64,000 bases of DNA from Erysipelotrichaceae bacterium (GTDB taxonomy: Bacteria; Bacillota_I; Bacilli_A; Erysipelotrichales; Erysipelotrichaceae). The stretch is from NCBI GenBank assembly GCA_017432885.1, contig JAFRIE010000033.1, positions 124,001 through 188,000 on the forward strand, in the 5' to 3' direction. Below are positions 1-60,724 of this stretch, one piece after another. A model generated the notes under the pieces. It was not told the DNA's origin. It did no database searches and worked only from the letters and a program-made list of their open reading frames with translations. How positions within the stretch are numbered: position 1 is the stretch's first letter; the number at the start of each line of letters is the position of its first letter. The position numbers were made by a program, and so were the translations under genes.

Positions 1-3000
1 TCATCAACATCTATGAAGGCGCAGTGCTTGAATCCGATGAAATAGCCGTATATCTGCCTTCCGGCGGAACGACAACTATCAGCGGCGGAACCATCACCGG
101 TACGACTGCCGTCTATCAGAAGTCAGGAACACTCAATATCAGCGGCGGTACCCTGCATGCTACAGGAGCTGCTGCCGACTATGCCTATAACGGCAACGGC
201 GCTTATTCAACAGGCGACGCTCTGGTTGTAGACAACTGCGGTTATCCGGGCGGAACTCCTGTTACGGCAGTATCGGGTGGAACCTTCATTTCCGACAACG
301 CGAAACCGTTCGGTTTCTATGCATATGGCGAAGGCAATGAACCGATCAGCGAATACATCGCCCTGGAAGACGGAGAGAGTTTCTACGTCAATAAAGAACT
401 GGGTGAAAATTATCTGCCTGACGGTTATGTTTGCATACTGTTAAGCGAAGGAGAACATGCCGGACTGTATGAAGTAACATTAGGTTATACGGTATCCTTC
501 GATACCAATGGCGGTACACCTGCAACGATGGAAGATCAGAAAGTCGCAAAAGGCGAAAAGGCCACGAAACCGGCAGATCCGGCAATGGATGGCTATTCGT
601 TCGCCGGATGGTATCTGGGAGAAGAAGCCTTCGACTTCGATACGGTCATTACAGACAACATTACGCTTAAGGCACATTGGAGTCTGAATGTAGCGAAGAT
701 CGGCGATACGTTCTATCCGACCCTTCCGGCAGCATTTGCCGCTGCTCAGGCAGGTGACACGATCGTACTGCTGACGGACACCGAGATCGAAACGATCGTG
801 GTAGACAGGCAGATCATCCTGGATCTCAACGGACATGAAGCAAGTTCCGACAGTTCCGAACTCTTCGTCGTAAGCACAAGCGGTGATCTCACGATCACCG
901 GTAACGGCAAGATTACGGGTCCGGCAAACGGTGAAGCCTTCGACGGCGAAGCTCTGATCAGAGTAGAAGGCGGAAAACTTACGGTCGAAAACGGTACGCT
1001 TACCGCGACCGGTTCAGGATCCGACGGAATGTATGGCGTCTATGTGCTTAAAGGCGGCACGGCTGTCTTCGGAAACGAAGAAGGCGGTCCGACAGTCACG
1101 GCACACTTCGCAGCGATCGGAACCAACAACACGACAGCTCCGGCGACGATCATCGTCAACGGAGGTACATACACGGCCAATGCCGTACCTGCAAACAACG
1201 AGTGGTGGTATTACTTCTGCGCTCCGGTATATGCGGCGGCAAACGGTACTTACACATTCAATGGCGGTATGTTCAAAGGCTACTACGGCCTCTCCAGCCG
1301 TTATGCGGATACGGATCAGGATATTACCCTGAACAATGTAACGATAGAAGCTTCATCCGGCATCGATGTCTTCATCGACAGCCAGACGGGTTCTACCAAT
1401 ACGCCTGACCGTCACATCCAGTCTTCGGACAACACTCTGACGCTTCCGGAAGCTTATTTGTGGAAACCGCTTGAAAGCGGAATGTACGAAGCGGCGGAAC
1501 CGAGTGTCATGGTGACATTCGATCCGGACAACGGCAATGATGCCGTCAAAGTCGAAGTCATCAAGGGCAAGAAGGTTGAAGAACCTGCTGCACCAAGCAA
1601 CGGTGAATTCGTATTCATCGGCTGGTACAACGGCGATACGGAGTTTGATTTCGATACTGAACTCAATGAAGATGTCAATCTGAAAGCATGGTGGAAGACG
1701 ACAGTCATCTACAATGTCGACGGAGCTGTAACGGAACTGGAAGCCATCTACCATCAGCCGACTCCGACCATTGACGATCCAACCAAAGAAAACTATGTGT
1801 TTGACGGATGGCTGAAGAGCGGCGCCGAGGAGAAGGGCGTGGATGAAACGGTTGAAGCGGCGAAAGTACTTTACATCGCAACCTGGAAGGGTGAAGAAAA
1901 GATCGTCGTCTATGCGGATGGTCTTGGAAACGTGCTTGAGTACTACATGCTCAACTATGGCGATGATACCCCTGCTTTCACCGGAACGCTTCCGACAAGA
2001 GAAGGCTTCCACCTCGATGAAGAACACCTGTGGACGCCTGAAGTAAAACCGACAGTCACTTCTGACATGGCCTATGAGCTCAACTGGCTCGTGGATATGT
2101 TTACGGTCAAGTTCGTCTCCGATGGCGAAGAAGTCGAGAGACGCGATGTCGCTTATGGCCGTCCGGTATCAGCACCGGATGAAATCGTAAAAGAGAATTA
2201 CGTATTCCTGGGCTGGTATTATACGGTTGACGGCGTAGAGAAGCTGTGGGAATTCGAAACCGATACCGTAAAATCCGATCTTGTTCTGACGGCCAAGTGG
2301 GCGTCCTGTGAGTGGGAACTGACATTGCCGTTCACTGAAGGCACACTGACGGAGACCGGAGCATACTTCAGTGACCTGATACTCGAATTCTATCCTGCAG
2401 ATCCATCGATCGGCAGAACGAAAGACGGTTACTGGGTAGGTGTCAAGTTCATCGCTCCTGAAGTTATAACCGAAGAGAACGTCGACGACGCCACATTCAC
2501 TTACAACGGCGGAGAGACCTGGCTCAGCTTCGCGGATGCAAACGACGGTCAGGGAGAAGACGGAAGATACTACTTGGAGGCCTGGGTGATCCTGACGGAA
2601 GAAGAAGTCGAGGAACTGCTCGCCGCACAGGAAACAAAGAAGACAACTTTCACGTTTACCTGGAACGGAAACAGACAGGAGACGCAGAGCTTCCTGATCG
2701 AGATCGATCCAAGCAACATCCTTCTGATCAAAGACGGCGAAATTCAGATGGCCGTTGAAGATGGAGTGATCGTCGAAAAGAACGAATACTACACGGTAAC
2801 ATTCGATGCCAACGGCGGTTCGCAGGTCGATCCGCAGTCGGTCAAATACAATCAGAAAGCAGTCAGACCGGAAGATCCGAACAGAGATTCCGCGAATTTC
2901 CTGGGCTGGTTCCTGGGTGAAGAAGAATATGACTTCGATACGCCGGTAACCGGAGATATCGTTCTGATTGCGAAATGGGAAGAAGTCGACTGGGGCGATG

Positions 3001-47768: not shown

Positions 47769-47851
47769 TAAAGAGGTAAACGCTTACAGTTGAATTCTCA
47801 TTCGATTGTGTGTAAGGGAACGGTTTTTTGTGCTAAACTGAAGAAGTAATT

Positions 47852-47920
47852 TATCGTATAATCCTTCAGATATGGTGAAGGAGTCTCTACCCCGGTGCCG
47901 TAAAGACCGGGACTATGATA
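47852..47920 (+). ncRNA. Guanine-type purine riboswitch aptamer
   Basis: Conserved elements appear in order: P1 strand TATCGTA, then ATAATCC, GATATGG, GGAGTCTCTACC, the P3 stem CCGGTGCC/GACCGG-type pairing with a GTAAA loop, and GACTATGA closing P1 with TATGATA. The C at 47913 corresponds to position 74 of the xpt aptamer; C there recognises guanine or hypoxanthine, whereas adenine switches have U. It lies 156 bases upstream of the transporter gene with a terminator between, so purine excess should stop transcription. Confidence 0.93.
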
Positions 47921-47995
47921 GGATTCCCTTTCTTAGGTAATCCTTGATAAGACGATAGGATTACAAAAGAAGGAGCAGGTATCATCAGCTCCCGC

Positions 47996-59097: not shown

Positions 59098-59565
59098 ATG
59101 GACAGGAAGGAGTTTATTCAAAGGGTTTCCAGAAACTGCAAGCTGATCCGTACGGAATACGGCTATTCGCAAGATCAGATGTCCCTGGCTATCGGCGTAT
59201 CTAAGAAGTCTTTGGTAGAGACAGAAAAAGGAAGAAGACTGCTGGGCTGGAACGAAGCGGTAACGGTCGCAACCGTATTTGCCGGAAGCAATCTTCTGCA
59301 GAATGAGTTTGGGGGAGAGTTATCTGACATGATCCGGGCGCTTGCTTTTGACCATACCGATGTCGTCTATCCGCAGACCATGGGAGGAAAGATCTGGTGG
59401 AAGATCGTCGAAGAGAAAAACGGCTACCGTCTGCAGCAGAACATCCTTTCCGGGCATTACCGTCTGTTGGATCCGCATGACGGCAGGATGGTCTCTTCTT
59501 TTGATCTTAATGAGATCCAAAACTTTATCAAAAACCTGTCCCTGTTTAAAGATGAAAACAAATAA
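59098..59565 (+). CDS. XRE-family transcriptional regulator
   Basis: 155 residues with AAGGAGGACT before the ATG. Residues about 10-65 form the helix-turn-helix (LIRTEYGYSQDQMSLAIGVSKKSLVETEKGRR). The rest, about 90 residues, is a mixed alpha/beta unit with 'KIWWKIVEEKNGYRLQQNILSGHYRLLDPHDG', likely for dimerisation or ligand sensing. It probably autoregulates through the 22-bp palindrome. The membrane protein gene overlaps its last 14 bases, a typical regulator plus regulated-membrane-partner arrangement. Confidence 0.88.
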   Translation: MDRKEFIQRVSRNCKLIRTEYGYSQDQMSLAIGVSKKSLVETEKGRRLLGWNEAVTVATVFAGSNLLQNEFGGELSDMIRALAFDHTDVVYPQTMGGKIWWKIVEEKNGYRLQQNILSGHYRLLDPHDGRMVSSFDLNEIQNFIKNLSLFKDENK

Positions 59566-60070
59566 AACGATCCGTTTGTACAATATCATTCTGCCGATCT
59601 GGCTACTGATATGGTGGCCAAGCTACCTTTGGCTGGGACTGATTCCGGCAAACTATCTTTTTGACTACCTGGTGACTTATCTGTCGATGAAAAAACTGGG
59701 GATCGAGGACTGTAAGCAGAAGGCACAGAATCATTCCTGGAAAGTCTGTCTGATCGGTTTCTTTTCGGACTTTGTTGCTGCGGCTTTTCTGCTGGCTTTT
59801 CTTTATCTGACAGACATCATACTGCCGAATGAATTGGGCGAATCGATTTCTTACGGATTAAGCTGGAAACCGAATCTGTTTTCCATCCTCATCATTCTGA
59901 TTGCGATTGCAATTGCGGGCGTACTGATCTATCTGCTGAACCGGTGGATGTTCAAAAAGGATACGGATCTTGGTAAGGAACAGATCCACAGGATCGCTCT
60001 GAATCTGGCAATCTTTACGGCTCCATATCTCTTCCTGATTCCTTCTTCCCTGATCTATCACGGAATGTGA
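59552..60070 (+). CDS. Membrane protein coupled to XRE regulator
   Basis: 172 residues from ATG 59552, inside the end of the XRE gene, in a different frame and without its own ribosome binding site, so translation is coupled. Four membrane helices (about 10-35, 60-85, 105-130 and 148-168), short loops, no motif recognised. The pairing suggests it responds to or transmits a signal to the XRE protein, but this is inference. Its stop overlaps the extended -10 of the ECF gene promoter. Confidence 0.72.
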   Translation: MKTNKTIRLYNIILPIWLLIWWPSYLWLGLIPANYLFDYLVTYLSMKKLGIEDCKQKAQNHSWKVCLIGFFSDFVAAAFLLAFLYLTDIILPNELGESISYGLSWKPNLFSILIILIAIAIAGVLIYLLNRWMFKKDTDLGKEQIHRIALNLAIFTAPYLFLIPSSLIYHGM

Positions 60071-60076
60071 TATAAT
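60068..60076 (+). promoter_or_regulatory. Extended -10 promoter of the ECF S-component gene
   Basis: TGATATAAT is a perfect extended -10 (TGn-TATAAT), overlapping the stop of the preceding gene. No strong -35 is needed in such promoters. The expected transcription start near 60083 gives a leader of about 120 bases. Confidence 0.65.
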
Positions 60077-60082
60077 AAAACC

Positions 60083-60190
60083 GTTCTTTCAGGAAGAAGG
60101 AACATCGGACTGAAGTCTTAGTAGAAGTAAGAATTAACGATATCACGAAGGTATCACTTTTCCGGCAAGGAAGAAAGATACCTTTTATTT
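60083..60190 (+). ncRNA. Structured attenuator leader, possible riboswitch of unassigned class
   Basis: A first hairpin (CCG..GTTC / GAAC..CGG, about 60081-60108) is followed by a purine-rich stretch. Then GATATC (60139-60144) can pair with GGTATC (60150-60155), while AAGGTATC (60148-60155) can instead pair with GATACCTT (60177-60184) and is followed by TTTTATTT, an intrinsic terminator. The two pairings exclude each other. I could not match the aptamer part to TPP, THF, preQ1, FMN, SAM, cobalamin or T-box consensus sequences. Confidence 0.6.
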
Positions 60191-60205
60191 GTGGAGGAAA
60201 GTAAT

Positions 60206-60724
60206 ATGAAAACAAAACAGCTGGTATTGACAGCCTTATTTATCGCCTTGGGTGTTGTTCTGCCGATGGCCTTCCATGCCATTCCAAACGGCGGAACGCT
60301 GTTTTCACCGATGCATATTCCGGTACTGATCTGTGGTCTGGTCACGGGACCTGTGACAGGACTGATCGCCGGTGCTGCAACGCCGCTTCTGTCGTCAACT
60401 CTGACAGGCATGCCTCCGGCACCGATGCTTCCGGGGATGGTTGTAGAATTGAGTGTCTATGGTCTGGCGAGCGGCCTGATGATGAAACTGATGAAAAGCA
60501 ACAAATCATTCAAGAAGATTTATATTGCCTTAGTCGTGGCGATGCTGTGCGGCAGGATCGCAGGCGGTCTGGTCAACGGACTGATCCTGAATGCCGGGAA
60601 CTATACGCTGAAGATGTGGGTCACGGCCTATTTTGTCAGAGGTATAGCCGGGATCGTAACGCATCTGCTGATCATACCGGTCGTCGTCAGGGCACTGCAG
60701 AGAGCCAACCTGACAGCCGTATAA
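60206..60724 (+). CDS. ECF transporter S component
   Basis: 172 residues from ATG 60206 with GGAGGAAAGTAAT in front; an in-frame GTG upstream is less likely. Six membrane helices; 'LVLTALFIALGVVLPMAFHAIPNGGTLFSPMHIPVLICGLVTGP' and 'GLIAGAATPLLSSTLTGMPP' are the S-component hallmarks (helix 1 docking residues and loop 1). It captures a vitamin or precursor and works with the EcfAAT module encoded elsewhere. The substrate is not readable; the attenuator leader suggests regulation by that vitamin. Confidence 0.88.
   Translation: MKTKQLVLTALFIALGVVLPMAFHAIPNGGTLFSPMHIPVLICGLVTGPVTGLIAGAATPLLSSTLTGMPPAPMLPGMVVELSVYGLASGLMMKLMKSNKSFKKIYIALVVAMLCGRIAGGLVNGLILNAGNYTLKMWVTAYFVRGIAGIVTHLLIIPVVVRALQRANLTAV

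Follow-up and report, generated by a model that had tools for sequence, protein, structure and literature searches.

What reads the RNA leader of an ECF transporter S-component gene, when an intrinsic terminator stands between the promoter and the start codon? This question is raised by one locus in the window, a 64 kb (64,000-nucleotide) stretch of DNA from a gut-dwelling Erysipelotrichaceae bacterium. A reading of the sequence alone had placed here an extended -10 promoter, a leader of about 120 bases with a 5' hairpin, and two mutually exclusive pairings, one of them a terminator. We were able to locate each of these parts, the leader lying at 60083-60190 and running for ~123 nt up to the S-component ATG at 60206:

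60068-60076, + strand: extended -10 promoter element TG-A-TATAAT, from the sequence (no entry in the promoter scan)
60083-60103, + strand: hairpin 1, GUUCUUUC-AGGAA-GAAGGAAC, from folding, loop search and same-genus covariation
60107-60118, + strand: hairpin 2, GGAC-UGAA-GUCU, from loop search and same-genus covariation
60139-60155, + strand: hairpin 3 (antiterminator), GAUAUC-ACGAA-GGUAUC, from loop search and stepwise folding
60147-60190, + strand: intrinsic terminator, 60147-60155 pairing with 60177-60185, inner stem 60158-60163 with 60169-60174, and a U-rich tail
60193-60197, + strand: ribosome-binding site GGAGG, from the sequence
60206-60724, + strand: ECF transporter S-component gene (PF12822, 69.4 bits, cut-off 30.7)

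A simple promoter/terminator scan missed both transcription signals, the promoter because it has no good -35 and the terminator because an internal loop interrupts its stem. The vitamin-transporter context originally given to the gene was right. An assignment as a folate transporter is unsupported, the folate S-component model TIGR04518 scoring 53.6 bits, below the curated cut-off of 60.

Coordinates and folding agree on the exclusive pairings. The arms of hairpin 3, GAUAUC (60139-60144) and GGUAUC (60150-60155), pair at the expense of the same GGUAUC with GAUACC (60177-60182), and vice versa, the latter pairing being the base of the 9-bp terminator stem. Moreover, all three hairpins obey one loop rule, (A)NGAA closed by C-G (AGGAA, UGAA and ACGAA). 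This common loop type is the main feature of the leader and was absent from the original prediction. The leader is the sole site on either strand of the window with two such hairpins within 70 nt. We define the proposed element as at least two (A)NGAA C-G hairpins before a target, the last sharing an arm with the terminator, and this arrangement is found in the window leader.

The minimum free energy of the full leader is -31.3 kcal/mol (z -3.94; as low in 0/200 shuffles), and that of the part up to the antiterminator is unremarkable (z -0.96; 32/200 shuffles as low). By energy alone the 5' part does not stand out; the case for the element rests on conservation. Forcing all three hairpins to form gives -24.2 at best, against -31.3 for the terminator fold, so the on-state is expected to require assistance. 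When the transcript is folded step by step, hairpin 3 comes first and the terminator from 60184 on; the antiterminator hairpin is seen at transcript ends 60156, 60160, 60175 and 60180, and lies inside a larger fold at 60165 and 60170.

Structural conservation in relatives had been set as one test of the prediction, and both hairpin enrichment and covariation were found. In the 230 nt upstream of the S gene at 110 loci (our own included, and a few drawn twice from one genome), we counted 108 hairpins of the (A)NGAA C-G type, compared with 0-7 for 25 control loop/closing types. The density before the S gene is 4.3 per kb, versus 0.23 per kb in the flanks. Across eight same-genus leaders 94.1% of cells pair, against 55.3% in slid controls, and 9/19 pairs change on both sides: 7/8 in hairpin 1 and 2/4 in hairpin 2, hairpin 3 being nearly invariant within the genus. 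Similarly, the spirochaete ECF-operon leaders are 96.3% paired with two-sided change in 6/15 pairs, hairpin 1 there lying within the last part of the preceding coding region and lacking such change, and the nikM leaders are 92.4% paired with two-sided change in 5/11. An arm of such a hairpin is common to the downstream terminator stem in 27/39 leaders, of which 38 were picked among hairpin-bearing leaders and one (L019) has no hairpin under the strict rule.

The model R1 gave 18 strong matches (E 1.1e-6 or lower), one per genome, among 120 related genomes. Seventeen lie before the S gene, and one (G068) in the gap that separates it from the following gene. At that last locus (L129, about 1500-1600, minus strand) the tandem hairpins stand between the S gene and a 131 aa gene of unknown family. 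The 20 weak R1 matches elsewhere in relatives (E above 0.003) were set aside; the 12 with loci (L130-L141) were inspected and mostly look like isolated hairpins or chance hits within coding regions, with one exception, L136 (G084, E 0.015), where three such hairpins stand at a contig end. A multi-target regulon in our own genome was also discarded, only one strong R1 match being present in the 73% complete assembly.

No known class had seemed to fit the leader, and this held under an Rfam 15 scan, which gave no family at the curated score and no relevant match at E up to 5. A known riboswitch is thereby ruled out at the gathering level and up to that E value. The scan of 60 related loci returned tRNAs only. 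GGA is the core of CsrA sites, and the AGGAA loop of hairpin 1 contains it; however, the UGAA and ACGAA loops do not, which excludes a CsrA/RsmA target, and the Rfam CsrB match (9.5 bits, cut-off 71) is a chance one. The closest likeness in design is to the ANTAR targets (EutV/eut, NasR/nasF, AmiR/amiE), for which the accessible text of PMC3369931 describes two tandem hairpins with hexanucleotide loops bearing A1 and G4. As there, the hairpins of the leader are small, in tandem and conserved in their loops, the last of them is incompatible with the terminator (in the window leader and in the same 27/39 leaders), and a protein acting in trans would stabilise the hairpin (PMC3369931). It differs from the ANTAR targets described in that text in having NGAA or (A)NGAA loops closed by C-G, often in three or four hairpins. 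ANTAR protein (PF03861) was found in 0/14 same-genus genomes tested, ours (73% complete) included. The loops AGGAA, UGAA and ACGAA and the absence of the protein from those 14 genomes led us to reject an ANTAR reading. LoaP leaders (dfn, mln) share protein-dependent read-through via a small leader hairpin in Gram-positive bacteria, and the accessible text of PMC12691694 gives them UNCG-loop hairpins with no terminator overlap. Recognition by LoaP was rejected, since none of the three hairpins has a UNCG tetraloop; the terminator overlap here is a further difference. The attenuator is genuine, conserved and not covered by Rfam. In mechanism it resembles ANTAR antitermination, yet it fails both the ANTAR loop and the ANTAR protein tests.

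The hairpins are associated with a protein family, DUF3842 (PF12953). Hairpin leaders stand at the S gene in 39/55 genomes with DUF3842 (D+) versus 4/41 without (D-), with a Fisher p of about 1.6e-9 that overstates the case because the genomes are related and the counts are not independent. The association appears in three sets with slightly different criteria, the last two counted by hand. At least two hairpins were found in 15/25 D+ versus 2/25 D- genomes with the S gene (up to 3 kb upstream), in 21/24 versus 2/6 for relatives' leaders (230 nt), and in 3/6 versus 0/10 for genomes outside the earlier sets (260 nt). Exceptions occur in both directions. Three D+ genomes (G070, G073, G075) have no hairpins at the S gene, and four genomes (G011, G023, G068, G167) have hairpins with DUF3842 not found in a search that carried no positive control, G068 being 95% complete.

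DUF3842 genes often adjoin the element, upstream on the same strand, divergent, or downstream, and a DUF3842 match is present in 63/141 loci (some loci duplicated). We took 85 DUF3842 genes with distinct sequences, a few of them sampled from two loci. The 260 nt at and after the gene end contain 114 hairpins of the type, spread over 58/85 genes; the controls there reach at most 9 for 13 loop types, and 9 hairpins lie in the 240 nt before the gene. In our own genome DUF3842 (G000:C30:58452-58835, 171 bits) is away from the element. Indeed, the family is unlinked to at least one target in this genome and in G030, G079 and G166, so its pairing with the element needs no linkage. DUF3842 occurs in only 13/392 genomes drawn over the phylum. 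In the DUF3842-ECF spacers of six loci (L051, L069, L074, L075, L062, L071) a further conserved stem, CCGGGCCTACCCGG or GTCGGGCGAACCCGAC, was seen by eye before the (A)NGAA hairpins.

The element also recurs at unrelated transporter genes. Where the S gene is the last in an ECF operon, the hairpin cluster lies before the operon, about 2.4-2.9 kb upstream. The three-part design, consisting of one or more hairpins, a linker, and a hairpin whose right arm is common to the terminator, was found before larC and the second S gene behind it in G030 (L242), before FecCD permeases in L217 and L219, and before a FecCD-like permease, called by eye, divergent from larC in G166. In addition, related hairpins lie between DUF3842 and nikM in six Erysipelotrichales relatives (L148, L153, L165, L168, L170, L171), within an AUCCC/GGGA pairing close to the start codon, where the effect might be on translation instead. 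In two further loci (L215, L216) hairpins stand before DUF3842 and between DUF3842 and larE-larB. The assignments of LarE, LarB and LarC come from curated models. No hairpin cluster was found at larA (0/6 larA loci of D+ genomes). These loci define an RNA regulon absent from Rfam, across Erysipelotrichales, Clostridia and spirochaetes.

The original prediction had left a choice between a new riboswitch and a protein-binding leader. The data support this pair of options, and the second fits better because of the repeated loops of one type, the variable number and spacing of the hairpins, and the associated partner family acting in trans. We favor, with some reserve, a protein-dependent transcription attenuator whose most likely reader is DUF3842, a putative RNA binder. 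RNA started near 60083 would fold hairpins 1, 2 and 3, with the C-(A)NGAA-G loops as recognition signs. A factor holding the hairpins would keep hairpin 3 closed and the terminator blocked, so that the S-component gene is transcribed; in its absence GGUAUC would re-pair with GAUACC and transcription would stop. DUF3842 is a small Rossmann-like protein; it is probably a sensor of the cofactor or nucleotide that the element-bearing genes import and synthesise. In this account the hairpins and their covariation, the mutually exclusive terminator, the recurrence at unrelated transporter genes and the association with DUF3842 are observed, and what we infer is that DUF3842 binds RNA, which way control runs and what the ligand is. 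The proposal gives a testable function to a family on which our literature search found no paper; the search also found nothing relevant on tandem-hairpin leaders of ECF or nickel genes.

The structure model of DUF3842 is Rossmann-like and confident (pLDDT 93.4). Among solved structures it comes closest to 1sbz, an FMN-dependent UbiX-like protein, and to NAD-binding epimerases, at modest similarity (query TM 0.35-0.53 among the 50 matches listed), and no solved sequence relative was found (best E 0.13). The fold is not a known RNA-binding one, and most members are not basic but neutral to acidic (9 of the 12 examined have a pI of 5.1-6.7). From the model, a nucleotide-sensing role is plausible.

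Another protein, encoded elsewhere, could read the hairpins, with DUF3842 co-occurring as an enzyme or carrier of the same cofactor pathway. We judge this unlikely, though several observations lean towards it: the nucleotide-binding-like fold with no basic surface excess, the position of DUF3842 inside a larE-larB-larC operon (L215, L216), and the four genomes with hairpins in which DUF3842 was not found. However, D- genomes keep S orthologs free of hairpins (10/10 in the third set), so DUF3842 tracks the RNA element and not the transporter alone, and no other candidate family was found, ANTAR being absent in the genus. That the RNA itself binds the ligand, with no protein needed, is quite improbable. 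ECF S genes are often controlled by riboswitches, and the leader does have alternative pairings with a terminator, but there is little sequence conservation between the hairpins, their variable number and spacing and repeated short loop are unlike a single binding pocket, no riboswitch matched in Rfam, and the association with DUF3842 is not predicted by such a mechanism. Finally, an ordinary terminator with processing hairpins and no specific reader is hardly credible, since, even though coding regions also give rise to GCAGAAGC-like hairpins (0.23 per kb as background in the flanks), loop identity is kept while stems change, the arms are placed to exclude the terminator in those 27/39 leaders, and the hairpins are associated with DUF3842.

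The target genes hint at a possible ligand. They include larE, larB, larC and nikM, of the nickel-pincer-nucleotide (NPN) pathway, together with FecCD importers and ECF S, which often has a gene for a uridine-kinase-like protein behind it, and the co-regulation of larE/larB/larC and nikM suggests NPN acquisition. An S gene of this family directly follows larC in three genomes (G026:C11:21975-23640, G041:C10:61081-62353 and, at L242, G030:C27:7270-8983), none of which has a LarB over the cut-off. LarB is missing in 14/18 D+ genomes with LarA, versus 5/10 D-; LarA without LarB in D+ genomes fits import, but also incomplete assemblies. LarA is present in only 3/14 same-genus genomes and does not separate D+ (18/47) from D- (10/33), so NPN as the ligand is a working hypothesis, a lead and not a result. 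The accessible text of PMC11796402 reports larB, larE and larC without larA in ~15% of surveyed genomes, from which NPN-binding proteins not yet known are suspected. It is conceivable, if rather doubtful, that DUF3842 proteins are antiterminators of a new family, able to bind RNA and sense nucleotides, which measure NPN or a precursor and switch on larE, larB, larC, nikM and the import of NPN or its precursor. In that case the NPN cofactor would have its first importers in the ECF S component (with its kinase) and the FecCD permease. Such a link would tie orphan vitamin-type transporters to NPN metabolism, where the same text already suspects cofactor-binding proteins beyond LarA (PMC11796402).

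A uridine-kinase-like P-loop protein adjoins the S gene in 32/141 loci (for example, L100:1284-2330 on the minus strand, L047:3423-3998, L054:3516-4103 and L154:1908-2957 on the minus strand); in some genomes it carries an additional N-terminal domain of unassigned family. In the 200 nt upstream of S, the orthologs without hairpins often share CCCCC-nn-GGGG-CTT(G/C), seen by eye just upstream of the -10 box (L037, L038, L041, L042, L050, L079, L080, L085, L090, L093, L099, L101, L102 and L104), perhaps the site at which a DNA-binding regulator stands in for the RNA switch. In the window, the region upstream of the leader (59098-60070, + strand) lacks the usual DUF3842 neighbor. It encodes an HTH-like protein with a weak TIGR03070 match and a small, membrane-like protein; the stop codon of the latter and the leader promoter overlap. 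The sole Rfam match in the window is a purine riboswitch (RF00167) at 47834-47935 on the + strand, with 78.9 bits.
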